A stretch of 64,000 nucleotides of DNA, from the NCBI RefSeq assembly GCF_001426265.1, contig NZ_LMDG01000023.1, forward strand, positions 87,826 through 151,825, read 5' to 3'. The DNA comes from Rhizobium sp. Root1220 (GTDB lineage Bacteria; Pseudomonadota; Alphaproteobacteria; Rhizobiales; Rhizobiaceae). Positions 6,676-61,421 of the stretch are shown in pieces (position 1 is the first letter of the stretch; the number at the start of each line of letters is the position of its first letter). Made by a program: the position numbers and the translations under genes. The notes under the pieces are model-generated. The model worked only from the letters and a program-made list of their open reading frames with translations, was not told the origin of the DNA and did no database searches.

Positions 6676-6763
6676 GGAGGTACCCCGATTCCGGATCTGG
6701 CTAGCCTTCAAACGGGGCAAGCAGCCCACAGTCGGCGATATTGTGACCATCATTCATTTAGCA

Positions 6764-6796: not shown

Positions 6797-6851
6797 AGCG
6801 AAAGCCCTATCTTATTAAGCGGGGCTTAACAAACTATAGTTAACAATTGGT

Positions 6852-7886: not shown

Positions 7887-8222
7887 TTCTCAAGCTCTCT
7901 TTCTCTTCTCTCCTCTTGTCCGGTGAGGGGGAAGGCGCGAATGGATCGCGGCTTCCTGTCCCCAGCCGGGCCGGGGAGAGAGCGGCAGGCCAGAGACGTC
8001 AGACGGTTTTCGTCGTCGTTTTGGCCTTGGTTTTGGAAGAAACCGGAACGGCAATATCCATCCTGGCACTGCGTGCCCGGTCATTGCATGCAGCAATGGT
8101 ATGTTCGTCGCGAACCATGGATATTCCTATTCCGTCGTTGCTCATAAAAGGTTTTCCACAGGAGTCAAGGTTTTTGGTCGATCCGGGTCGGTGAACCTAT
8201 CGTATCTGCCGCGCCGGACACC
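7887..8222. other. Intergenic stretch upstream of asd with an imperfect palindrome
   Basis: No convincing gene is seen in these 336 bases. Positions 7907-7929 and 7959-7981 are roughly complementary (outer TCTCTCCTC paired with GGGGAGAGA), giving a long imperfect hairpin like the degenerate intergenic repeats common in rhizobial genomes. The asd promoter and any opgC terminator should lie here, but neither is clear. Confidence 0.4.
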
Positions 8223-45783: not shown

Positions 45784-46715
45784 CGGCCCCCGCCCACCAA
45801 CCAGTACGGTTGAGCCGCCGTGATTGGCTGCTTTCCGACCGTCCACAATCGCGAATGCAGGCCCGGCTTGGGCGAGCATACGTCACCTGGCGCCAGTTCA
45901 CGGCGAACCGATTGGCGGTTGTCGGTCTGTTGATTATCGTCACCTTGTTGCTCGTTGCCGCCTTCGCCGACGTGCTCGCGACCCATTCGCCGGTCATCGG
46001 CGACCTCAAGAATTCCCGGCTGCTGCCACCGGGAACTCCGGGCTTCTGGCTCGGCACAGATGATCAGGGTCGCGATATCTATTCCCGTCTGGTCTATGGT
46101 TCGCGCATTACCCTGGTCGTCGTCTTTCTTGTTGCCGTCATCTCGGCGCCGATCGGGCTTATTGTCGGGACGGTGTCCGGCTATGCCGGCGGCTGGGTGG
46201 ATGCCGTTCTGATGCGCATCACGGATATTTTTCTGGCCTTTCCGAAGCTGGTTCTGGCGCTCGCCTTCGTGGCGGCGCTCGGTCCCGGCATCCAGAACGC
46301 CATCATTGCGATCGCAATCACCTCGTGGCCGCCGTACGCCCGCATCGCCCGCGCAGAGACGCTGACGGTTCGGCGCTCAGACTACATATCGGCCGTCAGG
46401 CTGATGGGTGCCTCGCCGTTGAGGATCGTCGTGCTGCACGTCATGCCGCTTTGCCTATCGTCACTCATCGTTCGCGTGACGCTTGATATGGCCGGCATTA
46501 TCCTGACGGCCGCCGGCCTCGGCTTCCTTGGCCTGGGCGCGCAACCGCCTCTGCCCGAGTGGGGCGCGATGATCGCGTCCGGCCGCCGGTTCATCCTTGA
46601 TCAATGGTGGGTTGCCGCGATGCCCGGCTTCGCGATCCTGATCGTAAGCCTGGGCTTCAATCTGCTCGGTGACGGGTTGCGCGATGCGCTTGACCCGAAG
46701 GAGAGCGGCCAATGA
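45780..46715 (+). CDS. ABC transporter permease, DppC/OppC type
   Basis: This 311-residue permease begins with a cytosolic tail, then FTANRLAVVGLLIIVTLLLV as its first membrane helix, the typical GTDDQGRDIYSRLVYG periplasmic segment, and an EAA loop with YISAVRLMGASPLRIVVLHV. It forms the importer channel with the preceding permease. It is coupled on both sides by ATGA overlaps. Confidence 0.93.
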   Translation: MTAPAHQPVRLSRRDWLLSDRPQSRMQARLGRAYVTWRQFTANRLAVVGLLIIVTLLLVAAFADVLATHSPVIGDLKNSRLLPPGTPGFWLGTDDQGRDIYSRLVYGSRITLVVVFLVAVISAPIGLIVGTVSGYAGGWVDAVLMRITDIFLAFPKLVLALAFVAALGPGIQNAIIAIAITSWPPYARIARAETLTVRRSDYISAVRLMGASPLRIVVLHVMPLCLSSLIVRVTLDMAGIILTAAGLGFLGLGAQPPLPEWGAMIASGRRFILDQWWVAAMPGFAILIVSLGFNLLGDGLRDALDPKESGQ

Positions 46716-47545
46716 CGACGCTTCTCACCGTTCAGAATCTCAAGGTCAGCTATCCCACGCGCACCGGGACGATCGAAGCCGTTCGCGGCGTTTCCTTCAC
46801 GCTTGGCAAGGAGCGCCTGGGGATTGTTGGCGAGTCCGGCTCGGGCAAATCCCAGACGGGGCGCGCAATCATGGGATTGACCTCGAAACACGGCGTCGTC
46901 ACCGCGGACAAGCTCGACTTCAACGGCATCGATCTGCTTTCCATATCGCCGAAACAACGTCGTCATCTTCGCGGCAAACGTATCGCCATGGTGCTTCAGG
47001 ACCCGAAGTATTCCCTTGATCCCGTCATGACAATAGGCCGCCAGATATGCGAGACGCTTCAGGCGCACGAGAGGATCGGCAAGGCGGAAGCGCGCGAGCG
47101 TGCGCTCGAAATGCTGGAAGCCGTTCAGATCCGCGACCCCGCACGGGTCTTCGATCTCTACCCCCACGAGGTATCTGGCGGCATGGGACAGCGCGCCATG
47201 ATCGCGATGATGTTGATTGCCGGCCCCGAACTGCTGATCGCCGACGAACCGACCTCGGCGCTCGACGTCACCGTGCAGCTCGACGTTCTGAAGATCATGG
47301 ATCGGTTGGTATCCGACCGAGGGATGGGATTGATCTTCGTGTCCCACGACCTGCGGCTGGTTTCGTCATTCTGTGATCGGGTCATCGTCATGTACGCGGG
47401 CAAGGTGGTTGAAGAACTCAAGGCATCCGAATTGAAGAATGCGCAGCACCCATACACACAAGGTCTCTTGAATTGTATGCCGCAGATCGGCGAGAGCAGG
47501 CACCCGCTTCCTGTCCTCGACCGCAAACCGGAGTGGGCGCTATGA
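46712..47545 (+). CDS. ABC transporter ATP-binding protein, DppD/OppD type
   Basis: This 277-residue ATPase has Walker A GESGSGKSQTG, a signature VSGGMGQRAM, Walker B LLIADEPTSALD and a switch histidine in FVSHDLRLV. The signature LSGG is replaced by VSGG, which is common in DppD-type subunits. It energises dipeptide uptake with the second ATPase. It is shorter than the usual DppD (about 320-330 residues), so part of the C-terminal oligopeptide-binding extension is reduced. Confidence 0.92.
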   Translation: MTTLLTVQNLKVSYPTRTGTIEAVRGVSFTLGKERLGIVGESGSGKSQTGRAIMGLTSKHGVVTADKLDFNGIDLLSISPKQRRHLRGKRIAMVLQDPKYSLDPVMTIGRQICETLQAHERIGKAEARERALEMLEAVQIRDPARVFDLYPHEVSGGMGQRAMIAMMLIAGPELLIADEPTSALDVTVQLDVLKIMDRLVSDRGMGLIFVSHDLRLVSSFCDRVIVMYAGKVVEELKASELKNAQHPYTQGLLNCMPQIGESRHPLPVLDRKPEWAL

Positions 47546-48303
47546 GCGCGGCGCTTTCCGTTCAGAACCTGAATGTGGTCTACGACCACTTCTATGCGCT
47601 GAAGGATGTCACTGTCGATATCGAGACCGGCGAATCCTTTGGTCTTGTCGGTGAATCGGGCTCGGGGAAGTCGACGCTCCTGCGTGCCGTTGCCGGACTG
47701 GCGCCAGTCTCTCAAGGCACGATCAGAATCCATGGAGATCCGCTCGAGGGTAGCAGGCGCACCAAGGCTTTCTACAGGCGGGTGCAGATGGTGTTCCAGG
47801 ATCCATACGGCTCCCTGCATCCACGCCAAACGATCGATCGCCTGTTGCTTGAGCCATTGGCGATCCACGGTATCGGCGACACCGAGAACCGGATCGCCCG
47901 GGCGCTCGACGAAGTGGGGCTCGGCAACGGTTTCCGCTTTCGATATCCGCACCAGTTGTCGGGCGGCCAGCGCCAGCGCGTCGCGATCGCCCGCGCCCTG
48001 ATCGTCGAGCCAACTATCCTGCTACTCGACGAGCCGACGTCGGCGCTGGATGCTTCCGTTCAGGCGGAGGTCTTGAACCTTCTCGAGCAGATCCGTCGTG
48101 ATCGCAAACTCACCTACATCATGGTCAGCCACGATTTGGGCGTGATCACGCATATGTGCGACCGGCTTGCCGTCATGCGCAACGGCGCCGTCGTCGAACG
48201 GCTGACGGCATCTGCTTTGGCCCATTCGGAGGTTCACGAGGACTACACGCGAAATTTGATGCTCGCGAGCAAGGGTTTCGTCAAATCTCCGGCGCTTGCG
48301 TGA
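47542..48303 (+). CDS. ABC transporter ATP-binding protein, DppF/OppF type
   Basis: This 253-residue ATPase has Walker A GESGSGKSTLLRA, signature QLSGGQRQRVAIARAL and Walker B LLLDEPTSALDASV. It starts by ATGA overlap with the preceding ATPase gene; the longer frame back to 47473 lies inside that gene. It is the last gene of the dipeptidase/transporter operon. It lacks most of the usual C-terminal extension of DppF proteins. Confidence 0.93.
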   Translation: MSAALSVQNLNVVYDHFYALKDVTVDIETGESFGLVGESGSGKSTLLRAVAGLAPVSQGTIRIHGDPLEGSRRTKAFYRRVQMVFQDPYGSLHPRQTIDRLLLEPLAIHGIGDTENRIARALDEVGLGNGFRFRYPHQLSGGQRQRVAIARALIVEPTILLLDEPTSALDASVQAEVLNLLEQIRRDRKLTYIMVSHDLGVITHMCDRLAVMRNGAVVERLTASALAHSEVHEDYTRNLMLASKGFVKSPALA

Positions 48304-48370
48304 TGCCGCTGCTCTGTTCCCTTAGCTCCCGGTAAGCAAATCCTTAAAACACGACCATTCAACTAGACTA

Positions 48371-48398
48371 TTGACAGTTGCCTTGCTTCTGTCATGAT
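48371..48398 (+). promoter_or_regulatory. Candidate sigma-70 promoter
   Basis: TTGACA at 48371 is followed after 16 nt by CATGAT at 48393, four of six matches to TATAAT. Two GTTAAC palindromes lie just downstream (48402-48407 and 48412-48417). It would drive the small ORF at 48441. Confidence 0.4.
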
Positions 48399-48440
48399 CC
48401 CGTTAACGACTGTTAACTTTCGTGATCATGGAGATCAGGC

Positions 48441-48626
48441 ATGTTTTTTCTCGGTGGCATGACCATGGGATATTTGCAGCCACCGGAGAAAGCCGAGAGA
48501 GAGACGATAGCCGCAGCCTCCATTCCTGCCGAAAAAGACAGGCGGCTGCTGGAAGCAGCACGTGAGTCGTCACGCGAAAACGCTGTCGAGCGGTCGTTGC
48601 TATGGGCTTGGCGCACCCTCTGCTAA
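48441..48626 (+). CDS. Hypothetical 61-residue protein
   Basis: This small ORF has GGAG 7 nt before its ATG and a candidate promoter upstream. The product (MFFLGGMTMGYLQPPEKAER, then a charged helical region ending LLWAWRTLC) matches no family I recognise. The hydrophobic start is too short for a membrane anchor. It is probably a genuine small gene, but evidence is limited to the upstream signals and alanine/glutamate-rich codon use like its surroundings. Confidence 0.45.
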   Translation: MFFLGGMTMGYLQPPEKAERETIAAASIPAEKDRRLLEAARESSRENAVERSLLWAWRTLC

Positions 48627-48748
48627 TCATCGGGCGAACGGATTTTTCACTGTGTCGCCGATGAACGAAAATTCATCTCTACTAATCAGATAGAGAAAAT
48701 AGGAAAATAGCTTCATCTCTCGAAGATTGAAGAGGTCGGAGGCAACAC

Positions 48749-48913
48749 ATGGCAAACTTGGGTATCCCGCATGCTCATGCGAACCAGTATGGTTCCGCAA
48801 AGATCAGCAAGCCGGGCACTGCGCGTGGCAAGTTTCAGTTCGCGATTCATGCGACGCTGGTCACTGCGGCGTTTGTTTTCGTCGCCGCGCTGGTTTGTGG
48901 CGTGGTTGGATAG
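48749..48913 (+). CDS. 54-residue small membrane protein
   Basis: A strong GGAGG site lies 6 nt before the ATG. The product has a polar N-terminal half (MANLGIPHAHANQYGSAKIS) and one C-terminal hydrophobic helix (TLVTAAFVFVAALVCGVVG). No family is recognised. The good ribosome-binding site and helix make it a likely real gene of unknown role. Confidence 0.6.
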   Translation: MANLGIPHAHANQYGSAKISKPGTARGKFQFAIHATLVTAAFVFVAALVCGVVG

Positions 48914-50152: not shown

Positions 50153-50167
50153 ATGGCGGAGAGGGTG
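50153..50167. repeat. Left attachment site (attL)
   Basis: ATGGCGGAGAGGGTG is identical to 61331-61345. It is the displaced original 3' end of the tRNA-Ser gene. The flanking bases differ on both sides, so the core is exactly 15 bp. Confidence 0.9.
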
Positions 50168-50275
50168 TCCAATGGGTTGACTAATCGCGACTAGTCCCAA
50201 ATAGCCAACCTGTTGATATTTATCGTTTTTAGTTAGCGACGACTATTCGAAGTATCTGCGGATGGGTTCTAAGCG

Positions 50276-50299
50276 GTTAGTTGGATTTGGCAAACTAAC
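50276..50299. promoter_or_regulatory. Inverted repeat in front of the integrase gene
   Basis: GTTAGTT (50276-50282) and AACTAAC (50293-50299) form a perfect 7-bp inverted repeat 17 nt before the integrase ATG. The related CAACTAAC occurs at the other end of the element (61277-61284). It could be an operator, an arm-type integrase site, or both. Confidence 0.45.
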
Positions 50300-50316
50300 A
50301 ACGATGGACCCCTTCT

Positions 50317-51654
50317 ATGGCAACCAAAATCGACCTTTTAAACCGCGAGTTGCGTAACCGAATTAAGGCTGGACGACCTAACATTTGGTCGCACGGAAAC
50401 AACTTGTGTTTTTCACTCGCTAAGAACGGCAGAGCGAGTTGGGTTTACCGCTACACAATCAACGGCAAGCGCCGCGTCATGACCGTTCAAGCATTCGATG
50501 ATGCCATATCGGAAAAAGAGCTCAAGTCATTGGAAGTGCTCGCTATCGAATACGGCGAACAACTGAAATCCGGTGTTGATCCTTTAAATATACGCGGGCA
50601 CTCCAAAGCCGTCGCAAAAACCGGTGACACTTTTCAGGAAGTGGCCGAAGCCTACATTAGAACGCAGCGATCTGGCTGGAAAAACGCGAAGCACGCCGAG
50701 CAATGGACCAGCACCCTTGAGGACTTCGTCTATCCACTAATTGGCTCGATGCTCCCGCATGAAATAGGAATTGCGGACGTGCTGCGGGTATTGCAGCAAT
50801 CGCATAAGCGTCGAAACAACGGCAAGGCCGGTCAACTTTGGGAAGTAGTTCCTGAAACTGCCAGCCGTGTTCGAATGCGCATTGAGAAGATCATCAGCGC
50901 AGCGAAATCGATGGGAGTTGGAAACGCCAATCGGGAAATTCGAGCACGATGGGCAAACCATACCAACCCTGCGCGTTGGGACGATGCGCTAGAGCATTGG
51001 CTCACCTCGCAAAGTCGGTCGTCTTCGCATTTCGCGGCTTTGCCGTATCAGGATGTCGGGCCATTTGTCCAAGAATTGCTCGCAAAGCGCGATTTCAGCT
51101 CGCGAGCATTAGCGTTCACGATCTTGACCGGCGTGCGGACAAGTGAAGCGTTGAACGCAGAATGGTCGGAAATCGATCTTGCATCCGCAACGTGGGAAAT
51201 CCCTGCTGAAAGAATGAAGGCAAACAAAATTCATCGGGTGCCGTTGTCGCGTGCCGCACTCGACTTGTTGAGAAAACAGCCGCGCTATCCGGGAAATCCC
51301 TTTGTATTCCCCGGCGCGAAAAAGAATCGACCTCTATCAAATCTGGCAATGCTTGAGGTGCTGCGCGGAATGAAAGGCTATGGTTGGACGGTGCACGGTT
51401 TTCGTTCATCACTACGGGACTGGATAACGGACACTACAATTCATCCAAGTGAAATCGCTGAAAGCGTTCTTGCGCACACAATTGGAAACAAAACAGAAGC
51501 GGCCTATCGGCGCGGAGAAGCGTTTCAAAGGCGCTCAGTATTAATGCAGCAATGGTGCGACTATCTGACTACAAATAGAAAACAATACGAAGGAAAATGG
51601 CAAAATTATTTGGCAATTACATTAAAAATGTTAGAAACTGGTGATATCATGTAG
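50317..51654 (+). CDS. int: Tyrosine recombinase / integrase (P4 type)
   Basis: This 445-residue integrase catalyses site-specific insertion and excision of the element. Catalytic residues are readable: Arg in LTGVRTSEALNAEW near residue 273, His-x-x-Arg in VHGFRSSLRDWI near 360, and the nucleophilic Tyr in KTEAAYRRGEAF near 397. The N-terminal part shows the arm-binding-like region typical of P4 integrases, ending in a core-binding domain (FQEVAEAYIRTQRSGWKN). Length is normal for the family. A terminator follows directly. Confidence 0.95.
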   Translation: MATKIDLLNRELRNRIKAGRPNIWSHGNNLCFSLAKNGRASWVYRYTINGKRRVMTVQAFDDAISEKELKSLEVLAIEYGEQLKSGVDPLNIRGHSKAVAKTGDTFQEVAEAYIRTQRSGWKNAKHAEQWTSTLEDFVYPLIGSMLPHEIGIADVLRVLQQSHKRRNNGKAGQLWEVVPETASRVRMRIEKIISAAKSMGVGNANREIRARWANHTNPARWDDALEHWLTSQSRSSSHFAALPYQDVGPFVQELLAKRDFSSRALAFTILTGVRTSEALNAEWSEIDLASATWEIPAERMKANKIHRVPLSRAALDLLRKQPRYPGNPFVFPGAKKNRPLSNLAMLEVLRGMKGYGWTVHGFRSSLRDWITDTTIHPSEIAESVLAHTIGNKTEAAYRRGEAFQRRSVLMQQWCDYLTTNRKQYEGKWQNYLAITLKMLETGDIM

Positions 51655-51659
51655 TTTGT

Positions 51660-51680
51660 GCTCGCTTACGCGGGCTTTTT
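51660..51680 (+). terminator. Intrinsic terminator of the integrase gene
   Basis: GCTCGC (51660-51665), TTAC loop and GCGGGC (51670-51675, with one G-T pair), followed by TTTTT. It lies 6 nt after the integrase stop. Confidence 0.85.
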
Positions 51681-51720
51681 CTATTGACTAACCATAGCTG
51701 TCCATGTTTACGGTGATATT

Positions 51721-51825
51721 GCCGCCTGATCGGATGACAGCGGTTCGAGGGACCAAATTTGCCGCCTGCTCGGATGACAGCGGTGCAAGGGACCAGATGT
51801 TGCCGCCTGATCGGATGACAGCGGT
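51721..51825. repeat. Three tandem 24-nt hairpin-forming repeats
   Basis: Three copies of a 24-nt unit (core CTGATCGGATGACAGCGG; the middle copy has CTGCTC at its start) lie at 51721-51744, 51761-51784 and 51802-51825. The spacers are 16 and 17 nt and share AGGGACCA, so the true unit is about 40 nt. Each unit can fold: CCG(C)CTG pairs with CAGCGG. They sit between the integrase terminator and the AlpA-like gene and could bind a regulator, an excisionase or the replication protein. Confidence 0.8.
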
Positions 51826-51890
51826 GACGACGTGACGCGAGCCGAATGGCTGCACCCCCCACTGTACGAAGATTACCGCGAGGCAACCTC

Positions 51891-52100
51891 ATGTCCGAGA
51901 ACACGATCCTGACGCGCGACCAGCTTTGCGCGATGCTCAATATTTCCGATACCTCCCGCCAGCGCCTCGAAAAGAGCGATCCAAACTTTCCGCCCAAGAT
52001 AAAGATAGGAGTGCGCCGCGTCGCCTATCTCCGAGATGATGCTTACGCGTGGCTATTGCAGCAGCGTGAAGACGCGTCAAAGCGCAGATATGTGGCGTAA
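51891..52100 (+). CDS. AlpA-family helix-turn-helix regulator / excisionase-like
   Basis: This 69-residue protein resembles AlpA/MerR-type small DNA-binding proteins: ILTRDQLCAMLNISDTSRQRLEK is the helix-turn-helix, followed by FPPKIKIGVRRVAYLRDDAYAWL, the wing with the typical R-x-V-x-Y/W residue pattern. Such proteins act as excisionases or activate the integrase and replication genes of satellites. The ATG at 51891 has GAGG upstream; the longer frame to 51846 has no support. Confidence 0.85.
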   Translation: MSENTILTRDQLCAMLNISDTSRQRLEKSDPNFPPKIKIGVRRVAYLRDDAYAWLLQQREDASKRRYVA

Positions 52101-52212
52101 TCGTTAGTCTGCATGATTAGATGGACGCAGACTAGGAGAGATTTGCAAACCAAATCAGCAACTTAATTAGAATGACTTCGCGGAGTCATCGTCCTTCGCA
52201 GTCAAAAAAAGC

Positions 52213-52243
52213 CCGTATCGGACAGTTGGGACAGTCGATACGG
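52213..52243. other. Stem-loop with GGACAGT repeats before the primase gene
   Basis: CCGTATCG (52213-52220) pairs perfectly with CGATACGG (52236-52243). The loop contains two direct GGACAGT copies (52220-52226 and 52229-52235). It lies 28 nt before the primase start and could be an operator or part of a replication origin. Confidence 0.5.
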
Positions 52244-52270
52244 ACACGGGAAATTAGGGTTCATTTCACC

Positions 52271-54508
52271 ATGTCTAACGTTATACAATTACATGCGGGT
52301 GCTGACAACTCGATTGCTCAAGATTACTCGCAAACTGCCACCTATATCCACGCGTTGACTGGCGAGCCGGTAGAAACCGCGCAAGTTTGGTTTCGTGCAA
52401 TCCACGATATCGACAAGAGCGTGCCAGCGCGTAAGTTTTACGGAACGCTCGCACAGCATTGGCAAGAGCTCTGCGCGCATAATACAAGCGGTTATGGGGT
52501 GTTCGTCAATATAAACGCGTTTTCTGCAACCGTTCAGACGCATAATCTTACGGACGTGGGGTACTTGCGAGCCCACGTCATTGACTTGGATAACCCGCTA
52601 TCCTCACAGCAGAATTACGAACGCGCCGCAGCGAGCAATCCGCCGCCATCTTTCGCCGTCCAATCTTCACCTGCTAAGTTTCATTGCTATTGGGTGACGC
52701 AGAACTACCAAGGCAACGAACGTTACACGACGCTGCAACGGAAACTCCGGCAGGTGTATGATAGTGACCGCGCAATTGTAGACCCGACCCGCGTCTTAAG
52801 AGTGCCTGGCTTCCTGCATATGAAGAACCCTGTAACGCCGCACATGGTCACGACTTGGCCACTAGCGGGCGCTGCCTGGCGCTACACTATCGAGCAGATG
52901 GAAGCCGCTTACCAGCACGTCAACGTTATCGACGGGCAAGGCGGTCGGCATAAATTGGGCGACGTGGAGTTGTCGGCGCCGTCACTCGAATGGCTGCGGT
53001 TCGGTCTGTCGCTGATCGATCCGAACGAACTGCCGCGCCACGAATGGGTGAGCGTAACAGCCGCCTTCAAACAGGCCGGTTGGCGGCATGCTGACGAACC
53101 AACGTTGTTCGAAGCATGGTCTCAATGGTGCGGTCGATTTCTCGGGAACGATGATGTGGAGAACCTGAAACAATGGCGGTCGATTCGTGAGACGGAAGTG
53201 GGTTGGAAATCGTTTCTCCGCAAACTACCGCAATTGCGGGCAGCAACGATGTTCGGTCGCAATGGAAACGCCGTGCCAGTGCCGAAGCCTGGAACGCAGG
53301 ACCCTGTCCCAAACCCAATGACAGTCCCAGAATATCTAGATGGTTTCTCGCCTGATGCAGCGGCAACGACCACAGCAGCAACGTTGCGTAAAATGCACGA
53401 ACTTCGCATTCCACTCGCCTATGACGAGTTCGCGATGCTCGTGTTGCTAACGTCGCCAGTCCCTTGGGAAAAGAATGGAAGATATCCGAGACGTTGGACC
53501 GACAACGACATGGTTGGATGCAAGGCCTATCTTGAAAGCTACTTTCTTAAGCCATCGAAAGAAACGGTGAACGACGCTGCAGTGTTCATCGCACGACGTA
53601 ACGGTTATCACCCGGTACGCAATTACGTGCGCAATTTGACTTGGGACGGAGAAATGCGGCTTGACGCGTTGTTGCCGCGCTACTTCGGCACCGCTGATGA
53701 TGCGTATGCGAAAGCAGTCGGGAAGCGGTTTATGATCGGTGCAATTGCTCGCGTCATGCGGCCGGGATGCAAGCTAGACACACTCCCGATCCTAGAGGGT
53801 TTGCAAGGCACAGGAAAATCTACCGCCCTCAAAATACTTGCTGGCGAAGAATGGTTCGGCGATCAACTCCCGGACATAGCCAGAAACAATGATGCGATGA
53901 TTTATTTGTCCGGCAAATGGTTTGTAGAGATTGCGGAACTGTCGGCATTTAGTCGCGCAGAAAGCAATCGTATTAAATCATTTGTGTCGTCAGCAACGGA
54001 CAGCTTCCGGGCGCCGTACGCCAAGACAGGGGAAAATCACCCGCGTCAATCCGTTTTCGTTGGCAGCACAAACGACGAAGGCTACTTGCGCGACCAGACC
54101 GGCAATCGGCGCTATTGGCCCGTAAAGTGCGGTCGGATCGATACGGCAGCACTGACACGCGACCGTGATCAGCTTTGGGCGGAAGCACGCTTTCGATTTG
54201 ATGTTGGCGAAAGTTGGTGGCTCGCGGACGGCGAAGAACAGCTTGCCGCCGCCGCGCAAGAGGATCGACGCGAGCAAGACGCATGGGAAGAACGGGTGCG
54301 CGCGTTTGTCGCGACGCTAAACGGGGCTGCTGTGTCATTGAACACTGTTGCTAGCATAGCACTTGGAATTCCCACGACAGAGCGGCACACGGGAACAGAT
54401 AAGCGCATTGCTAATTGTTTGCGGGCGGCAGGTTACGAAAGACAGCGACGTTGGGGTCCGGACGGCAAGCGATTTTACCAGTACGAGCTACGGCGGCTCT
54501 CTCCGTAA
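52271..54508 (+). CDS. Primase/VapE-type helicase replication protein
   Basis: This 745-residue protein has an N-terminal primase-like domain (HVIDLDNPLSSQQNYERA near residue 103, PTRVLRVPGFLHMKNP near 175), a PriCT-type linker (LIDPNELPRHEWVSVTAAFK near 250), and a C-terminal VapE/superfamily-3-type ATPase with Walker A LEGLQGTGKSTALK near 512 and FVGSTNDEGYLRDQTGNRRYWP. It probably starts and drives autonomous replication of the excised element, as in P4 and PICIs. The ATG at 52271 (MSNVIQLHAG) is preferred; the frame to 52172 reads through the stem-loop region. Confidence 0.9.
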   Translation: MSNVIQLHAGADNSIAQDYSQTATYIHALTGEPVETAQVWFRAIHDIDKSVPARKFYGTLAQHWQELCAHNTSGYGVFVNINAFSATVQTHNLTDVGYLRAHVIDLDNPLSSQQNYERAAASNPPPSFAVQSSPAKFHCYWVTQNYQGNERYTTLQRKLRQVYDSDRAIVDPTRVLRVPGFLHMKNPVTPHMVTTWPLAGAAWRYTIEQMEAAYQHVNVIDGQGGRHKLGDVELSAPSLEWLRFGLSLIDPNELPRHEWVSVTAAFKQAGWRHADEPTLFEAWSQWCGRFLGNDDVENLKQWRSIRETEVGWKSFLRKLPQLRAATMFGRNGNAVPVPKPGTQDPVPNPMTVPEYLDGFSPDAAATTTAATLRKMHELRIPLAYDEFAMLVLLTSPVPWEKNGRYPRRWTDNDMVGCKAYLESYFLKPSKETVNDAAVFIARRNGYHPVRNYVRNLTWDGEMRLDALLPRYFGTADDAYAKAVGKRFMIGAIARVMRPGCKLDTLPILEGLQGTGKSTALKILAGEEWFGDQLPDIARNNDAMIYLSGKWFVEIAELSAFSRAESNRIKSFVSSATDSFRAPYAKTGENHPRQSVFVGSTNDEGYLRDQTGNRRYWPVKCGRIDTAALTRDRDQLWAEARFRFDVGESWWLADGEEQLAAAAQEDRREQDAWEERVRAFVATLNGAAVSLNTVASIALGIPTTERHTGTDKRIANCLRAAGYERQRRWGPDGKRFYQYELRRLSP

Positions 54509-54692
54509 TGCTGTCTCGGTCTGGCGCACACTTTCCCTGATATGATCAACTGGCAGCCGTTTACGCAGGAACACCTGCCATTTGAGGCGCCTGCTAATTT
54601 TTGGAACTCACTATTAAAAAAAGAGTTGCCCGTTTTTTCGTTTTGGGCGATATGGCTTTAGACCACGACAGAGAGTCATTAAGAGAGCAACG

Positions 54693-56387
54693 ATGGGACA
54701 TGTATCTGAATTGTCTAGTGTAACAGGCCTAAAGCCAGAGGAATCAGTGCGTCAAATCACCATTAAAGAGCTGCTCCGTCTTGGATGGAAAGAGGCGCAG
54801 CTGCGATGGAAGCCCGAGTGGCCGGTTCCCAAGACCCCTCATGACCTTACCAAGCGCGAGAGGGATCAGAAATACGAAATCTGCGGAAGCGCCGATCTCG
54901 TCATTTTCGCCGACACAAGCGGCGCGGCCCATGCGCTCCAAATCATCTTTGAGTTCAAGGCTCCGAACATCGATGCGGGGAAGGCGCAGTTAATGCGCTA
55001 TCTTAGCAGCGAACCGATGGCCAAGATGGGGTTTTGGACAAACGGTTCAGCCTCGCTGGCGATCTACAAACGGCATTCTGCCGATTGGGTCGTGGTTGAA
55101 GGGGCAAAGCTGCCTCAGCCTGGCGATGACTTCAGCCGCGCACCAGATAAGCCTCCCACGTGGAATAGTATTCGTACCCCGACTGAAGCCGAATTGTCAG
55201 CTGTTCTCCGCCGCATCGTCGCGACGGTGGTGGTCTCGGACGCCGCGGTGAACCGGCGCGAGGATCAGCTGCGGGAACTACTCCATATCGTCCTCGTGAA
55301 GCTTGAGAACGACGCTGTTTTCAGTCGATCGTCACGGCAGGATGATGCAATGGATTTTCGCCTTTATGGGGCGACAGAGGATCGTGTCACACGAACAGCA
55401 GAAAAGATCCGCGAGCAGTTCAAGGACTATTTTTCGCGGCAGCGCACTCGTATTTTCCTTCCGCACGATCGCCACGACCTCCTGCTGACGGATCAAACGA
55501 TTTATTCTGTAGTCTCGGAGCTGTGGCCCTATCGCATTCTCGGCGACAAAATCGACTTGCTGTCAAAGGCCTTCCAGACTTTTAGAACGTCCGCGCTTAA
55601 GAGCGGCGAAGGGCAGTATCTAACTCCGCTCCGAGTCGTGCGACCGGCCATTATGGCACTGGATATCACATCCTCAGATAAAGTGATTGACCCGGCCTGC
55701 GGTACAGGCGGATTTCTAATCGAAGCGCTTCGACAGGTTGCGGCGAAGGAATTCCCAAAAGAGGAAGAAGCCTGGAATCTCATCAAGTGGGCTAATGACA
55801 ACCTGTATGGGATCGATAAGGACGACATTGGAGTTAAACTGACGCGAGCGATGATGGTTGCTATGCGCGATGGGTCAACTCACGTTCTCCTCGGTGACTC
55901 GATCCGGGTGAACGAGTGGCCGACCAAATACACCAGATTACGCGATGAGATCGGACAGAATCAAACGCCGTTTGTGCTAGAGCAGTTTACTGTAGTTGTT
56001 ACGAATCCCCCGTTCGGTGAGGATCTGAAGGTCAAAGCCGTCGACTGCAGGGCCGCGGGCTACACAATCTCTAATCACGCGGCAATGAAGGGACCTGGCA
56101 AATACGTCGATCTAGAAATTGGGTTGGTATATCTTGAACTCGCACACCGGCTTTTGCGAAGGGGCGGACGGATAGGGATTGTTCTTCCCGAAACATACTT
56201 TTTCAGCAAGAAATATCGTTGGCTTCCGGGATGGATGGATGGGCGACTGAAGCTCCGCGGCATGACGAACATCGCGATGGAAGCATTCGAAGAATTCTGC
56301 CGCGCAAAAACAAACTTTTACATTTTCGAGAAAGTTGGAGACGGCGATAAGGCTGCCGTCGCCACAATCTCTGATCAGGAGGACTGA
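54693..56387 (+). CDS. Fused restriction nuclease / N6-adenine DNA methyltransferase
   Basis: This 564-residue protein joins two activities. The N-terminal 180 residues resemble the HsdR N-terminal nuclease domain, with an Asp (CGSADLVIF) and Glu-x-Lys (IFEFKAPN) of the PD-(D/E)xK pattern. The C-terminal part is a type I-like N6-adenine methyltransferase with motif I DPACGTGGFLIEAL and motif IV VVTNPPFGED. There is no helicase/translocase domain, so it cannot act as classical type I. The arrangement matches type IIB enzymes of the BcgI kind (RM fusion plus separate specificity protein). The specificity gene follows by 3 nt. Confidence 0.88.
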   Translation: MGHVSELSSVTGLKPEESVRQITIKELLRLGWKEAQLRWKPEWPVPKTPHDLTKRERDQKYEICGSADLVIFADTSGAAHALQIIFEFKAPNIDAGKAQLMRYLSSEPMAKMGFWTNGSASLAIYKRHSADWVVVEGAKLPQPGDDFSRAPDKPPTWNSIRTPTEAELSAVLRRIVATVVVSDAAVNRREDQLRELLHIVLVKLENDAVFSRSSRQDDAMDFRLYGATEDRVTRTAEKIREQFKDYFSRQRTRIFLPHDRHDLLLTDQTIYSVVSELWPYRILGDKIDLLSKAFQTFRTSALKSGEGQYLTPLRVVRPAIMALDITSSDKVIDPACGTGGFLIEALRQVAAKEFPKEEEAWNLIKWANDNLYGIDKDDIGVKLTRAMMVAMRDGSTHVLLGDSIRVNEWPTKYTRLRDEIGQNQTPFVLEQFTVVVTNPPFGEDLKVKAVDCRAAGYTISNHAAMKGPGKYVDLEIGLVYLELAHRLLRRGGRIGIVLPETYFFSKKYRWLPGWMDGRLKLRGMTNIAMEAFEEFCRAKTNFYIFEKVGDGDKAAVATISDQED

Positions 56388-56390
56388 TTC

Positions 56391-57419
56391 ATGGCTATCC
56401 ACAAGCCCAAGTGGTTTTCTGACGACTATGTGATGGTTTCTACGGCTCCAACTTGTGGGCTCACAAAAGGCGGCCGCGCGCTAAAAAAGGTCGATCCCCT
56501 CACGGCACAGCGTATTCAGGTTGTTGACCCTGAAACTGGCGGCCTTGTGGATGCCGTAAACGATCAGCTGCTGGAAGATATGGAAGCGCTAGCGGCCTTG
56601 AAGGGCCTCCCAACGACGGAAGACAAGATCCCTGACACGCTAAACTTTGTACCAGCGAAGGACGTCAGCGTTGGTTGTGCCGTTCCAATTTACTACGATC
56701 ACCGTTACGGCGACCACTTTCATACCGAATTGAAGAACGATCCGACGTTCAAAGGTTTCACCTCGGAGACCCTAGGTGCGCTACTAAAAGACGGCCGCCT
56801 GCTGATCCGCAACGGTCATGGTTCGCCATCACAAGAGCAACGCATCGGCGAAGTTCCGTATATTAAGGTTTCCGATTTGCGGGCAGGGCTCGTGAACATT
56901 AATCCGACAAATCGGGTTCCTCGGGCTGTTGCCGAAAAATTCTGGCGCGCTTCATCGTCAGGTTTACAACCGTTCGATCTGATTTGCCCGGAGAGAACTT
57001 CCAAAAATATCGGGGACTTCTGCGTTATGATGCCTGGACAGGAGCAGGTCCTCACGACGAAGGAGGTTATCGTCCTTCGACCGGGACCGAACGCAAACTT
57101 CGACACTTTTTATCTTCTATGGGCTATGACGCTGAAGATTGTCCGCGATCAATGGCGGCGGGTCATTTTTATGCAAACTAACCGAGAGGATGTCGGGAAG
57201 AGGTATCTCGAAGTTGCTATTCCAGTGCCGCCCACGCGCCAACGCGCCGATGAACTGTCGAAGCCTTTCAAGACATACTACGAAAAGCTCGCAGAGGCTC
57301 GTAGCGGTCTCCAAGCTTACTTGAACGAGAATAAGACTCACCACTTCTTTGTCTCTGGAGCCGAGGAGCCAGAAATTACTGAAGACGACGGTATCGTTGA
57401 CGAGGATGTAGGCCCGTAA
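56391..57419 (+). CDS. Specificity subunit of the restriction-modification system
   Basis: This 342-residue protein has one recognisable target-recognition half: EVPYIKVSDLRAGLVNINP near residue 157 and the C-terminal FDTFYLLWAMTLKIVRDQW with AIPVPPTRQRADEL, typical of HsdS-like proteins. The first 150 residues do not look like a second target-recognition domain. BcgI's specificity subunit is of nearly the same length. It starts 3 nt after the fused methyltransferase gene, so they form one operon. A single recognition domain implies that two copies pair up. Confidence 0.82.
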   Translation: MAIHKPKWFSDDYVMVSTAPTCGLTKGGRALKKVDPLTAQRIQVVDPETGGLVDAVNDQLLEDMEALAALKGLPTTEDKIPDTLNFVPAKDVSVGCAVPIYYDHRYGDHFHTELKNDPTFKGFTSETLGALLKDGRLLIRNGHGSPSQEQRIGEVPYIKVSDLRAGLVNINPTNRVPRAVAEKFWRASSSGLQPFDLICPERTSKNIGDFCVMMPGQEQVLTTKEVIVLRPGPNANFDTFYLLWAMTLKIVRDQWRRVIFMQTNREDVGKRYLEVAIPVPPTRQRADELSKPFKTYYEKLAEARSGLQAYLNENKTHHFFVSGAEEPEITEDDGIVDEDVGP

Positions 57420-57505
57420 ATTTGGGCGTCGGCCGAGCTGGAGCGGGGTGTGATCCGGCATGCGAAATGCAAATAATCCTCGCGGTCGCCATGTGCCCGC
57501 GGGGA

Positions 57506-57599
57506 TTACTGACTGCTAGTTTTTAGGGACAGTGGGGAGAGCACGGCAATTCATTGAGTCCGAGGAGGTTCATCGGTGCCTGGCGGAGGCACTGTCCCT
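57506..57599. repeat. Duplicated noncoding unit, copy A
   Basis: The copy begins with TTACTGACTGCTA and ends with ACTGTCCCT. Its outer arms AGGGACAGTG/CACTGTCCCT can pair over 10 bp. It contains TGGCGGAG, which resembles the att core. Confidence 0.55.
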
Positions 57600-57660
57600 G
57601 TTGGTCCCCGTCGGACGCCTATAATACCAACACGTCAGAAACTTGCTATAATTTGCATAA

Positions 57661-57801
57661 TTGCTGACTGCTACTTCATCGCACTTCTTGTAGGGAAAGT
57701 AGGGACAATAGGGCAATTTACTGAAATTGCAGGGAAATTTTCGTCCCCCTTTAAATAAGAAATAGTAAGGCCAGTAGGGTGTGGCGGAGATAGTGTCCGC
57801 T
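57661..57801. repeat. Duplicated noncoding unit, copy B
   Basis: This copy matches copy A in block order, starting TTGCTGACTGCTA and ending GTGTCCGCT, with an insertion of about 47 nt. GTGGCGGAGATAGTGTCC at 57781-57798 matches the attL sequence and its following bases at 15 of 18 positions. Confidence 0.5.
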
Positions 57802-58085
57802 ATTGCAATCAGTCAATCTCTACGATTTACAATCGGTTATTGCAGGGGCCAATTGGCTCACTAATCCAAGCATCTATTATTTTCGACTATATCTTTAAGT
57901 GAAGGGTCGTTCAGAGCGCCATGGATCCGGGGTCCAATCCTCGGGTGCTACGGGCAGTGCTTGCCGCTCGTCGCCCAGGGCCTTGCCCCCGCGTACGACT
58001 TCGGCTTGATTGCCATGTCTTCTGGTAGGGTGCGCCTCATACGGCTATCACCATAATCTTGTTGTCCACATTAGGAGAACCCATC

Positions 58086-58850
58086 ATGAAAGATCTTGTT
58101 GCGGTCATTCCCGAGGTCGATTTGCTGTTGAGCTTGGAGCCAGAAGAGCTGGCGGGCAAGCTGCTATTCATCCTCCGTCGTCGCCTTCAAAGAGGGGAGC
58201 GATATGTTCATCTCGGAAACTGCCTGAATGAACTATCGGGTCGTGATTTCTCTGAAGGAGCGCCGGGCTACTCTCAAAACCGCATCGAAGATGTCAAAGT
58301 CGCAGTCAGCGAGGCTTGGCTCTGGTTACAGGCCCAGGGACTGTTAGTTCCAGCGCCGGACAGCAATGGGCAGAATGGCTTTCGCATTCTAAGCAGACGT
58401 GCGCAGACCTTTGAGGATGAGACCGCGTTTGCTCGCCACAATGTTGCGAGGCTTCTTCCAAAGGAAATTCTTCATGCTCGCTTTGCTGACCGTGTCTGGT
58501 CCGCATTCGTGCGCGGTGAGTTCGACGTCGCGGTATTTCAGGCTACAAAAAGCGTAGAGGTGTATGTTCGGGAAGTTGGCGGCTTTGGCAACGAACTTCT
58601 TGGGGTGAAGCTGATGCAAGAAGCGTTCAAGGCGGATGGGGGTGTCTTGACTGACGCAACTGCGGAGGCTGGTGAACGCCTAGCCCGCATGCAGCTTTTT
58701 TGCGGTGCAATTGGCTCATACAAGAACCCGAACTCGCATCGAGATGTCAACATGGAGGACCCAATGGAAGCGCTCGAAATCATTCTTCTCGCGAATCATT
58801 TGATGAAGATTGTTGACGCACGCGCACATGCACTTCGGCCAGGCCGGTGA
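58086..58850 (+). CDS. TIGR02391/Ymh-family protein, possible defence partner
   Basis: This 254-residue protein carries the C-terminal Ymh-type region: AFKADGGVLTDATAEAGERL, then MQLFCGAIGSYKNPNSHRDV. Members are of unknown function and are frequently found near restriction or other defence genes. The N-terminal half (MKDLVAVIPEVDLLLSLEPE) is helical and unassigned. AGGAG lies 10 nt before the ATG. It stands 666 nt after the specificity gene, so it has its own promoter and need not belong to the restriction system. Confidence 0.75.
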   Translation: MKDLVAVIPEVDLLLSLEPEELAGKLLFILRRRLQRGERYVHLGNCLNELSGRDFSEGAPGYSQNRIEDVKVAVSEAWLWLQAQGLLVPAPDSNGQNGFRILSRRAQTFEDETAFARHNVARLLPKEILHARFADRVWSAFVRGEFDVAVFQATKSVEVYVREVGGFGNELLGVKLMQEAFKADGGVLTDATAEAGERLARMQLFCGAIGSYKNPNSHRDVNMEDPMEALEIILLANHLMKIVDARAHALRPGR

Positions 58851-59030
58851 CTACGCCAAGTCTCAATCGTAGATGGCGTGGTCCGTGCCTGAGAAGGTGG
58901 TGAGTATTCGGAATTTAAGCCGGATTCCCGGAATGAAAATTTGGCCATTTGGCTAGAAAAAACAAATACTTGACAGGCTTTTATGATCCGGCCAATCTGT
59001 GGCCAGTCCCTGATTTTCTGAGGAAATGTC

Positions 59031-59786
59031 ATGCCTATCAAATTCCTGAATTTCGAAGATGACGCCGCTTCCATAATCACCGTCCGCGTGGAGAACGGCC
59101 CATCCGAGAGGGTGGTCTTTTATCGTAAGTTGCTTACCTCGGCGGCATTCAGAAATGTTGTTCAACCGCTTCAAGCCAATGTTGATCTGTTCGCCTTAGG
59201 AATTGCGAGAGCGTCCGAAACTTCAAATCTTCGCGGCATTCATCATCGCGCACGAGAGACCGCTCCGGCGCTTCGCCAATCCTTTCAAGATATTGGTAAT
59301 GCGGGGCGGCAAAAGCTCTCTGACATAGCGAATGTCCGCAACGATCAGCTTGGACGGCATAAAGTTGATCCGGCCCGGTCTGTTGCAATCGCAACCCGCC
59401 TTTCCGCAATGAAGATTGCTGACGCTTCTCGCTTGGCGTTGACCGATCCGGAAGTCGCCGTCTCTGCCTTGCAGAATTGGGCAATTGGCGGCCTTCCTGA
59501 CGCCCTTCGTCAGCAGATAGAAAACAGCTTGATCCTGCACAATCTGACGACAACGTATCTCGCCCACCATCCGCTAAAGCCGTCTTTCATCGACCCCATC
59601 CCGAATGGCTTTGATCGTGATGCGGCTATGACCAACGCGAAGGCAGCAATGAAGGCGCACGAGGATGGTGTTGCTGAGGTCGATCTTGTTCGATCCATGC
59701 TAACGAGCGTGGTCAATTTCGTTGCAGTTGCGACGGACCAGCATCCAGTTGTTGCTTTCGACTTGCTCAATGGCAAGGCTGCATAA
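59031..59786 (+). CDS. Hypothetical protein, first gene of the right-end operon
   Basis: This 251-residue protein is not recognised. It starts MPIKFLNFEDDAASIITVRV, is mostly predicted-helical by eye, has no cysteine, no signal peptide and no long hydrophobic segment. GAGG lies 8 nt before the ATG, and a TTGACA box lies at 58970. It is directly followed by a small helix-turn-helix gene, so its role may be linked to element regulation or packaging, but this is inference from position only. Confidence 0.7.
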   Translation: MPIKFLNFEDDAASIITVRVENGPSERVVFYRKLLTSAAFRNVVQPLQANVDLFALGIARASETSNLRGIHHRARETAPALRQSFQDIGNAGRQKLSDIANVRNDQLGRHKVDPARSVAIATRLSAMKIADASRLALTDPEVAVSALQNWAIGGLPDALRQQIENSLILHNLTTTYLAHHPLKPSFIDPIPNGFDRDAAMTNAKAAMKAHEDGVAEVDLVRSMLTSVVNFVAVATDQHPVVAFDLLNGKAA

Positions 59787-59787
59787 A

Positions 59788-60018
59788 ATGGAGCCTATTC
59801 GATTTGAGCTGCCTTGCGTTGTCACTTTGCCGAGCGAGCCGCTTGTTTCTCATGATCAGCTCCGCATTGCACTTGGGCAACCATCGCGTCAACTTATCGC
59901 CCTTTGGAAGCGTGACAGGGGCTTTCCGGCTTCGTTTCGTGAAGGCAACGGGGCATTTCTTCCAACCGACGCGGTTGAGGCGTGGCTGACCGCACAAAGC
60001 GTGCGAGTAAAGCGCTAA
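59788..60018 (+). CDS. Small helix-turn-helix (AlpA-like) protein
   Basis: This 76-residue protein has a DNA-binding pattern like AlpA: LVSHDQLRIALGQPSRQLIALWKRD, then FPASFREGNGAFLPTDAVEAWL. It is a second putative regulator of the element. It starts 1 nt after the previous stop and overlaps the next ATG (TAATG), so translation is coupled. Confidence 0.72.
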   Translation: MEPIRFELPCVVTLPSEPLVSHDQLRIALGQPSRQLIALWKRDRGFPASFREGNGAFLPTDAVEAWLTAQSVRVKR

Positions 60019-60449
60019 TGAAACCAGCTGTTCCCCAAAATTCCGCTTTCAATAGCGTCGTTCAACGCGATGAAACCGGTAAGTTTCTTCGCGGCTTCGG
60101 CGGTCGGCCCAAAGGATCAAAAAACCGCATCGCGCATGAAACGATGAAGCAAATTCAGGACATGCGCAGCGACGCAATTCATCAATTGTGGCAATTGATT
60201 ATGGCCGGTGATTTCAAGGCGATTTCTTATTGCCTTGACCGAATTTTGCCAAAGGAACGAGCCCTGGAATTGGACGACATGCGACCGGCAACAATTGGCC
60301 GCATGCTAGAAGACGGCGAAATCGTACCGAGCGAGGCAAAAGACCTCGCAGCCACAATCAAAAGTCTTCGAGAAATCGAAGACATAGAACAGCTGCGAGC
60401 AAAGCTAATCGAGCTTGAGGCAATTGTAAAAGATGGCTCTCAGCGCTGA
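60018..60449 (+). CDS. DUF5681-like protein, possible small-terminase-like subunit
   Basis: This 143-residue protein has the motif GKFLRGFGGRPKGSKNRIA, which matches the G-x-P-K-G-S-K-N pattern of DUF5681, a domain often seen next to phage terminase genes. The rest is helical (ETMKQIQDMRSDAIHQLWQL, then LDDMRPATIGRMLEDG). A DNA-binding, terminase-small-subunit-like role is plausible but unproven. It overlaps both neighbours by a few bases. Confidence 0.68.
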   Translation: MKPAVPQNSAFNSVVQRDETGKFLRGFGGRPKGSKNRIAHETMKQIQDMRSDAIHQLWQLIMAGDFKAISYCLDRILPKERALELDDMRPATIGRMLEDGEIVPSEAKDLAATIKSLREIEDIEQLRAKLIELEAIVKDGSQR

Positions 60450-60756
60450 GAAACGCAAGCTTGCCGAACTGCTAGCCCTGGTTCGCCCACGCCAAAGCAT
60501 GGCTGCTAGAATGGCGGCGCTCTCATTAGCTGATCGTCTGGCTTTCGAACGATGGGCGACCGCGCGCAAAGAATGGCACTCGAAATTTGACGCGCCTGGC
60601 GACGCCTACACGGCGCTACTGGATGGGAACGAAGGTCCTGCTCTGAACTGGCGAATTTCGCAAAAGGTATTCGCACCTGCACCGGAGATGCCGATCACCG
60701 AAAGTATCGAGTCGATACGCCAGAAGTACGCCGAATATGCGGAGACGAAGACATGA
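60433..60756 (+). CDS. Hypothetical 107-residue protein
   Basis: The protein starts MALSAEKRKLAELLALVRPR and ends EYAETKT. It is charged, probably helical and soluble, and matches no family I recognise. It overlaps the DUF5681-like gene by 17 bases and the next ORF by 4 (ATGA), so it is part of the coupled operon. Confidence 0.68.
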   Translation: MALSAEKRKLAELLALVRPRQSMAARMAALSLADRLAFERWATARKEWHSKFDAPGDAYTALLDGNEGPALNWRISQKVFAPAPEMPITESIESIRQKYAEYAETKT

Positions 60757-61241
60757 GTGATATTTTAGACGCCCTGACAAGAAGTCATGAACTCTATAGG
60801 GTGCGAAACAAACGGCTTATCGTTGCTTTTAGGCGCGCGACCGGACGGCTCGAATGGTTCGTAGTCGGAGATCTAAAAGGTATCCCGGCGTCCACGGTTG
60901 AGCTGCAACCCGCTCGTGAGAACGAAAAAACGCGTTTCGATCCCGACGCACAAAAGCTCTGGCTGGATGGTCTGGCAATAACGGACTTGCTCGCCTACGT
61001 GGCAGGGCTGCGAGAGTGGAAATCAGAGAAAGAATTCTGGAAGGTATTTGAGACCTTTTTCGGCGGGGGGCAAGGAATACGCCTTGCATCGCATCCCCGC
61101 GCAGCTCTTGCCGCTGTATTCAATTTCAAGCTTCCCGGCGAACTTGAATATTTCAAAAGGCAGATGATTGATCAGCACCCCCGAGCGTTTGCGGAACTAC
61201 AACGGGGTAAGTGCGTGATTGGCATCCTGGAAATCAGCTGA
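60753..61241 (+). CDS. Hypothetical 162-residue protein
   Basis: The last gene of the element, coupled by ATGA to the one before. The product starts MSDILDALTRSHELYRVRNK, contains FRRATGRLEWFVVGDLKG and ends with GKCVIGILEIS. No family is recognised, no membrane or signal segment is seen. It ends 90 nt before the tRNA-Ser gene. Confidence 0.68.
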   Translation: MSDILDALTRSHELYRVRNKRLIVAFRRATGRLEWFVVGDLKGIPASTVELQPARENEKTRFDPDAQKLWLDGLAITDLLAYVAGLREWKSEKEFWKVFETFFGGGQGIRLASHPRAALAAVFNFKLPGELEYFKRQMIDQHPRAFAELQRGKCVIGILEIS

Positions 61242-61252
61242 GAAACCAGTAG

Positions 61253-61286
61253 CTGTTAGAGGGTTGATTAGTAGCTCAACTAACAG
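61253..61286. promoter_or_regulatory. Inverted repeat at the right end of the element
   Basis: CTGTTAG (61253-61259) and CTAACAG (61280-61286) form a 7-bp stem, with TTGA/TCAA inside. CAACTAAC here (61277-61284) recalls AACTAAC in front of the integrase gene. It may be a terminator of the operon or an arm-type integrase-binding site. Confidence 0.45.
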
Positions 61287-61330
61287 AAATCCCCTAGTGC
61301 CGCTGAAACGTAACAATTTCACTGGACATT

Positions 61331-61345
61331 ATGGCGGAGAGGGTG
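61331..61345. repeat. Right attachment site (attR) at the tRNA 3' end
   Basis: This second copy of the 15-bp core covers the CCA end and part of the acceptor/T region of tRNA-Ser. The element supplies these bases after integration, so the tRNA stays intact. Confidence 0.9.
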
Positions 61346-61421
61346 GGATTTGAACCCACGGTGCCCTTGCAGGCACGCCGCATTTCGAGTGCGGTACATT
61401 CAACCACTCTGCCACCTCTCC
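61332..61421 (-). tRNA. tRNA-Ser (anticodon CGA)
   Basis: The minus strand folds as a tRNA-Ser: 5' GGAGAGG pairs with 3' CCTCTCC, followed by discriminator G and an encoded CCA. The anticodon stem CCGCA/TGCGG has the loop CTCGAAA with anticodon CGA (plus-strand 61385-61387), reading UCG. A long variable arm is present, as expected for a serine tRNA. Its 3' end is the integration site of the element. Confidence 0.97.

Follow-up and report, generated by a model that had tools for sequence, protein, structure and literature searches.

What is the 11.2-kb insert that abuts an intact tRNA-Ser gene in Rhizobium sp. Root1220, and by what means might it spread? We examined a stretch of 64,000 nucleotides of this genome (contig NZ_LMDG01000023.1, positions 87,826 to 151,825; hereafter the window, numbered from its first letter), in which positions 50153-61345 had been read, from the letters alone, as a small satellite of the P4 or phage-inducible chromosomal island (PICI) kind. 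Our comparisons make it fairly likely that the insert is a phage-satellite-like element, integrated and probably mobile, from a family of which we have found no earlier delimitation. Somewhat less firmly, we lean toward a fuller account: a new tRNA-Ser-integrated satellite family in Hyphomicrobiales, whose members would hijack helper packaging through a stand-alone DUF5681 protein and a five-gene block, and would trade primase halves with Rhizobium phages. Designations beginning with L and G are our own, for loci and genomes, respectively.

Ends, gene content and relatives

An exact repeat search found the 15-bp sequence ATGGCGGAGAGGGTG exactly twice, at 50153-50167 and 61331-61345, with 11.2 kb between the copies. 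The right copy shares 14 of its 15 bp with the 3' end of tRNA-Ser(CGA), an intact gene on the minus strand (61332-61421), and when the left 401 bp were shuffled 300 times with their dinucleotides preserved, the 15-mer never arose. The bounding repeat, its coincidence with the tRNA 3' end and integration at tRNA-Ser, all claimed in the original prediction, are thus upheld, and related elements have repeats of their own that likewise match local tRNA-Ser variants. Because a 14-15-bp duplicate of the tRNA-Ser 3' end marks the boundary of the element, the tRNA stays whole. In 1-kb windows, G+C content is 0.50-0.56 inside, 0.54-0.57 beside the ends and 0.58-0.63 farther out. Between the repeats lie eleven plus-strand genes (u251, u107, u162 and alpA2 are names coined here; TerS and TerL denote the small and large terminase subunits, HTH helix-turn-helix, and RM restriction-modification):

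50153-50167, no strand: integrase-side attachment (att) copy; exact 15-bp repeat, aligned with the att copies of relatives
50317-51654, plus: tyrosine recombinase (int), 445 aa; PF22022 (2e-18), PF00589 (1.5e-12)
51719-51839, no strand: 40-bp repeat in three near-tandem copies, lying between int and alpA1; from a repeat search
51846-52100, plus: AlpA-like protein (alpA1), start uncertain; PF05930 (0.0012, below cut-off), phrog_66 excisionase (3.6e-5)
52172-54508, plus: RepB-type primase with PriCT_2 and VapE-like helicase; PF16793, PF08707, PF05272 (4.9e-78), PF19263
54693-56387, plus: HSDR_N_2-like nuclease part with N6 adenine methylase (RM fusion); PF02384 (3.4e-18), PF13588 (2.9e-4, below cut-off)
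56391-57419, plus: Type I S-like specificity subunit; PADLOC Specificity_I (1.6e-4)
57782-57798, no strand: decayed third att-like copy, TGGCGGAGATAGTGTCC, a 17-mer with 2 mismatches
58059-58850, plus: Hypoth_Ymh (TIGR02391, HEPN-like) protein; PF09509 (1.2e-22), TIGR02391, PADLOC PD-Lambda-3_B (4.9e-5) and Aga_HEPN (0.0013)
59031-59786, plus: u251, conserved core protein with homologues in 7 other elements
59722-60018, plus: alpA2, small HTH-like protein (labelled by eye), conserved in relatives; true start probably near 59800
59982-60449, plus: DUF5681 protein, TerS-like; PF18932 (4.1e-5, below cut-off), 99.2% by hhalign to TerL-adjacent proteins
60433-60756, plus: u107, conserved core protein, kept in relatives
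60753-61241, plus: u162, conserved core protein, kept in relatives
61331-61345, no strand: tRNA-side att copy; exact 15-bp repeat
61332-61421, minus: tRNA-Ser(CGA), intact, the integration target (tRNA call)

All eleven proteins were compared with Pfam and PHROGs; the PADLOC scan took in all except u107, and the NCBIfam scan all except the DUF5681 protein. In these scans none of the eleven genes matched a structural, lysis or relaxase/conjugation family, which bears out the earlier reading that capsid and conjugation genes are absent. The integrase, AlpA-like, primase/VapE and DUF5681-like genes that it had named are all present, with the AlpA and DUF5681 Pfam matches below cut-off; it had not recorded the Ymh gene or the RM-like pair, nor the second small HTH-like gene, the three core genes and the third att-like copy. 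This last shares GTGTCC with the integrase-side copy, and its 17-mer, with up to 2 mismatches, occurred in none of 60 shuffles. The genes u251, alpA2, DUF5681, u107 and u162 form a five-gene block with overlapping ends.

Relatives came from a search with the DUF5681 protein in 394 genomes of the taxonomic family (8 matched, our own included), an order-level profile search of 347 genomes (22 matched; 2 already in the set, the regions of 12 added, 8 left out), a pattern scan of 84,980 named genomes and IMG/VR. The pattern scan gave two loci, L176 (Rhizobiales bacterium AFS083231) and L177 (Mesorhizobium albiziae DSM 21822, the same place as L160), and IMG/VR gave L191, which is also designated L264 below. 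This left 20 distinct DUF5681 loci of at least 12 kb (the window, L159-L163, L176, L191 and L245-L256; L136, with a match of 2e-3, was left out), and every long locus was then searched with profiles derived from the window and its relatives. A core of eight genes (int, alpA1, primase, u251, alpA2, DUF5681, u107 and u162) recurs in constant order in six of the 20: the window, L160, L161, L176, L191 and L245. Apart from the window, four members come from Hyphomicrobiales genomes and one from an IMG/VR record; L245, from a different taxonomic family, contributed to no model and yet has the full core. Core proteins are mostly 20-55% identical between elements, across two taxonomic families. The window integrase shares 51-55% identity with those of L161, L176 and L191 and no more than 28% with its L160 counterpart; in L160 the alpA1 match is also weak (2e-3); alpA1 itself is 67% identical over 58 residues to its L176 counterpart. 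In L159 the block follows an AAA protein and an integrase of another kind, and L162 keeps four of the five block genes with a primase remnant among insertion sequences. The remaining 12 loci have no block; L163 has, besides DUF5681, a u107 row that was itself part of the model.

End repeats of 14-15 bp bound five full elements, the tRNA-side copy being the 3' end of tRNA-Ser, with anticodon CGA in the window and L161 and TGA in L176, L177 and L264. The spans are 11.2 kb (window), 13.1 kb (L176), 13.2 kb (L177), 12.7 kb (L161) and 15.1 kb (L264), and in all five elements with known ends the integrase lies away from the tRNA. For L245, neither a tRNA nor a convincing repeat was found in 18 kb. 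When the att copies are aligned, each repeat follows its own host's tRNA-Ser variant in five of six elements, and tracking of this kind, to judge from the alignment, is not given by chance. The same core order and the element-specific copies of the tRNA-Ser 3' end therefore indicate that these elements are a family of site-specific elements.

Some members hold further features. Within the ends of L161 there is a tape-measure gene (5572-7890; phrog_8892, 4.3e-87), and the more distant L163 has one at 11343-13804 together with a neck gene; no capsid gene was noticed near either in loci that were not scanned gene by gene. A tRNA-Thr(TGT) lies within the L160 element (16385-16460) and a tRNA-Leu(TAA) within that of L176 (13798-13870). 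In L264, a 62-kb record, the occupied tRNA-Ser(TGA) has another integrase-like open reading frame (ORF), recognized by eye at 1065-2383, immediately on its upstream side, and TerL occurs at a different place; the satellite-like element may have a prophage as its neighbour there.

As to the minor features of the window, the 40-bp repeats could be an origin or an operator; a conserved iteron array was rejected, the repeats not being at the same position in four relatives. No Pfam match was obtained for alpA2, neither a Pfam nor a PHROG match for u162, and neither a Pfam nor a credible PDB match for the S-like subunit. The AlphaFold2 model of u251 has a mean confidence (pLDDT) of 88, and no fold was assigned to it: the best Foldseek E value in the viral library was 0.14, and the best VIA-align Z score, 7.8, falls in the range that the tool calls common.

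The DUF5681 protein and the primase

The DUF5681 protein is the candidate packaging gene. TerL adjoins DUF5681 in nine of 12 IMG/VR contigs found by DUF5681 (L165, L168, L169, L171-L175 and L178); PHROGs confirmed TerL in the seven contigs submitted, and the calls in L169 and L172 rest on models from others, L172 scoring exactly like L171. No TerL was found in the following 0.4, 1.7 and 2.4 kb of L166, L167 and L170, respectively. By hhalign, an eight-row alignment of DUF5681 proteins matches the TerL-adjacent L168/L165/L250 group at 99.2% (E 1.7e-19) over 121 columns, spanning residues 33-152 of the 155 in the window protein, and the L171-type group at 96.9% over 84 columns. The TerS-like gene is retained in the block in all eight block carriers, and in the six records with full elements the phrog_2 matches, which represent one TerL family only, all lie outside the elements. 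In PICIs and in SaPIs, their Staphylococcus aureus counterparts, TerS diverts the TerL of the helper. By homology and context, we suggest that DUF5681 may be a stand-alone small terminase, without TerL, in the manner of PICI TerS. A DUF5681 protein is listed among the virion proteins of a Salmonella phage in a passage of PMC8954984.

The replication protein offers a second link to phages. Two Rigallicvirus phages of Rhizobium, P106B and RHph_X2_24, have primases that share 65% identity with its N-terminal, primase half; over the same columns, the phages reach 66-67% identity to the window half and sister elements 45-52%. A tree of 18 sequences (314 columns) separates the window, P106B and X2_24 from the other 15 with an ultrafast bootstrap of 100, the primases of the other elements falling among viral contigs with weak support. 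The helicase half is of VapE type in the window and L176, but of DUF5906 type in L160, L161, L191, L245 and P106B. Given a primase half that groups with phages and helicase halves that differ, primase halves therefore appear to move between elements and phages. A single-protein search of IMG/VR returned no VapE relatives. The primase gene of P106B shares an overlap with an HTH_17 gene, much as the AlpA-like gene precedes the primase in the window; the HTH_17 protein and alpA1 have no measurable similarity (E 0.063). Unlike the element, the Rigallicvirus members are phages of 56 kb.

Known satellite classes and rival explanations

How does the element compare with described satellites? Gram-negative PICIs of the EcCICFT073 type, as portrayed in passages of PMC6092414, similarly have int, alpA and primase/rep genes at one end, lack structural and lysis genes, measure about 10-15 kb and hold a candidate packaging gene after the replication gene as well as defence-like cargo. 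The window element has the int-alpA-primase order (with AlpA below cut-off), no structural or lytic genes, a size near 15 kb and, as in five of the six elements, a specific attachment site at the tRNA-Ser 3' end. It is set apart, by description, through its RepB-primase/VapE (or DUF5906) protein and DUF5681 as TerS candidate; for the five-gene block we found no counterpart, known PICI proteins themselves lying outside the comparison. The phage-inducible chromosomal minimalist islands (PICMIs) of Vibrionaceae, in the portions of PMC10803314 that describe them, broadly resemble it in int, AlpA and a primase with a DUF5906 match, have no capsid remodelling genes either and can protect against phage. 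In the window int is present, DUF5906 scores 29.9 bits against a cut-off of 27.6 and AlpA 19.1 against 21, and Pfam gave no DUF3987 match. PICMIs integrate at fis and PICMI115 has six genes, whereas the element lies at tRNA-Ser with more genes and, unlike a PICMI, carries a TerS-like gene and the five-gene block.

P4-like satellites, to follow parts of PMC8628076, also combine integrase, AlpA, primase-helicase and a variable defence region. Pfam and PHROGs gave no match to Psu, delta or epsilon (the published custom Sid profile was outside the comparison), and in place of the P4 alpha-type primase, PF03288, stands RepB_primase with PriCT_2 and VapE/DUF5906. The P4-like label of the original prediction accordingly finds no support, and we rejected P4-like identity on the lack of Psu, delta and epsilon matches and the different primase. 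The capsid and packaging genes that capsid-forming PICIs (cfPICIs) bring themselves (TerL, portal, major capsid protein) had no PHROG or Pfam match among the window's genes. The element thus fails the tested features of the P4-like, cfPICI and (in its integration site) PICMI definitions. PICI status in the strict sense is defined by phage-dependent induction, interference and packaging; on sequence it stays putative. Tycheposons, VEIMEs and Streptomyces satellites, named in a section of PMC11389934, are likewise small elements proposed as phage satellites, a likeness by description only. We favour the view that the element works like a PICI- or PICMI-type satellite, and the satellite-like gene content of the original reading holds, with no structural, lysis or conjugation match, a core kept in other elements and a TerS-like gene that stands alone. 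In such a scheme, the integrase would insert the element at tRNA-Ser, AlpA1 would serve as excisionase or activator, and the primase-helicase would replicate the excised circle. DUF5681, from its homology and context, would steer the large terminase of a helper to element DNA, which would thus travel in helper particles; the RM pair and Ymh would be anti-phage cargo, with u251, u107 and u162 as conserved partners.

Several points weigh against this scheme. Helper, excision, induction and packaging are all still predictions. A thirteenth IMG/VR contig with DUF5681, found by its integrase (L198), has no TerL by our in-house models, four small models that are insensitive and missed known TerL genes in P106B, L265 and L266. 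The sole phrog_2 TerL match of the Root1220 genome (G000:C37:85877-86581, L266) lies beside portal- and capsid-like ORFs in what looks, by eye, like a gene transfer agent-type cluster. In the Ounavirinae phages Mushroom (Salmonella) and phiEa104 (Erwinia) the DUF5681-type protein does not stand beside TerL; the homology in Mushroom is weaker (89%) and centred on a basic motif. The window DUF5681 protein has no match in 50,697 phage records, and u251 and u162 likewise have none. The fold model of the DUF5681 protein is poor (pLDDT 68), and a fold assignment from this weak model was rejected (best Foldseek PDB E value 0.97). Outside the primase, the element and P106B have no word of at least 15 bases in common, and no packaging site was found. 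Finally, a phrog_2 TerL occurs in 13 of the 14 genomes with DUF5681 loci (G642 has no phrog_2 match genome-wide), but a TerL stands beside DUF5681 in one alone, G559 (locus L250; phrog_3717, 1.4e-34).

This last ratio slightly lowers the satellite reading and raises that of a mobile defence island. Such an island would integrate and replicate autonomously and would spread RM/HEPN cargo without hijacking phage particles, by transformation, general transduction or mobilization from an unrecognized origin of transfer (oriT), with DUF5681 as a DNA-binding protein in another role. Defence-like cargo in the window, L176, L245 and L159 fits such an island, as does the fact that no helper is known, but a TerS-like gene kept in the block of all eight carriers is not expected of it, and the general scans matched no relaxase family, a hallmark of integrative and mobilizable elements (oriT was not searched for); on balance we consider it rather unlikely. 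Prophage decay with loss of the structural genes would account for the tape-measure gene of L161, the tape-measure and neck genes of L163 and the phage relatives of DUF5681 and the primase. It is disfavoured because independent decay would not converge on the same eight-gene order, and this compact order and the att type recur in two taxonomic families at mostly 20-55% identity; a prophage remnant was rejected on this conserved core and seems improbable. The third att-like copy, with its GTGTCC, could also divide the interval into two adjacent elements, one with the integrase (50153-57782) and one with the DUF5681 block (57782-61331). Both L176 and L177 keep the two halves inside one att pair, with no inner copy on the same strand at up to 3 mismatches, and on this ground side-by-side elements were dismissed as very improbable. 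The integrated, satellite-like element thus remains our preferred reading.

Cargo, insertion site and significance

The best PDB match of the RM fusion is RM.BsaXI, in the methylase part only. The type IIB enzymes BsaXI and BcgI have an RM plus S make-up, and the window pair may be type IIB-like; the Ymh protein, from its PADLOC neighbours, is probably HEPN-like. From the relatives, ten cargo proteins were submitted to PADLOC. In L176 the matches were to a methylase and a nuclease of type II, in L245 to an AriAB-like ATPase and in L159 to an OLD/NsnB-like one; the others gave one weak DitB match (3.7e-4) and five proteins without a match, both of L160 included. Cargo, as far as such matches tell, is variable between elements and defence-like.

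Does the site occur without the element? Among 148 genomes of the genus, one per species and our own included, none of the other 147 holds a close copy: the best integrase match there is 43% identical, and the best primase-helicase matches in the genus (38-42%) cover part of the protein. The right flank, from tRNA-Ser to rplU, is matched in all 148 genomes. On the left the adjoining gene is of HD-GYP type; six other genomes have DNA homologues of it over nearly its full length (75-82%), and 44 of the 148 have some match. The homologue lies 1.06 kb from tRNA-Ser in G052 and G041, with one small ORF between, and 2.4 kb away in G101; in G118, G013 and G005 it is on a different contig from tRNA-Ser. 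In G120, the ABC-gene region that lies left of HD-GYP in the window is 324 bp from tRNA-Ser. Because HD-GYP or ABC homologues stand near tRNA-Ser in relatives, the insertion site is, by these homologies, present there without the element. The empty site foreseen in the original prediction, with HD-GYP directly beside tRNA-Ser, was therefore recovered roughly (1.06 kb in two of six genomes, 2.4 kb in one of six), and not cleanly, homology reaching the left repeat in none of the 147. The Opp-type ABC genes of the window (46600-48882) vary widely across the genus in distance from tRNA-Ser and in orientation (in G022 they lie inverted at 36 kb, in G120 at 324 bp). In other genomes, extra copies of the tRNA-Ser(CGA) end occur about 1.4-5 kb from the tRNA (L084, positions 89 and 1503; G014:C11, 369717; G067:C63, 143220). 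The tRNA-Ser site looks like a hot spot.

The satellite literature consulted deals with enterobacteria, Gram-positive cocci and vibrios, and PMC12949522, in part, treats satellites of plant microbiomes in general terms only. Our literature search found no paper on satellites of rhizobia, mention elsewhere being possible; the family of small mobile elements was apparently unrecognized before. If the satellite reading is true, Hyphomicrobiales would have satellites of their own, in a family of which six elements are ready for testing. DUF5681 would gain a candidate function, as would the unannotated phage families phrog_8771, 4114 and 26239, and u251, u107 and u162 would be three new conserved protein families. 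The elements would then serve to disseminate anti-phage genes, those for restriction-modification included, within Hyphomicrobiales.

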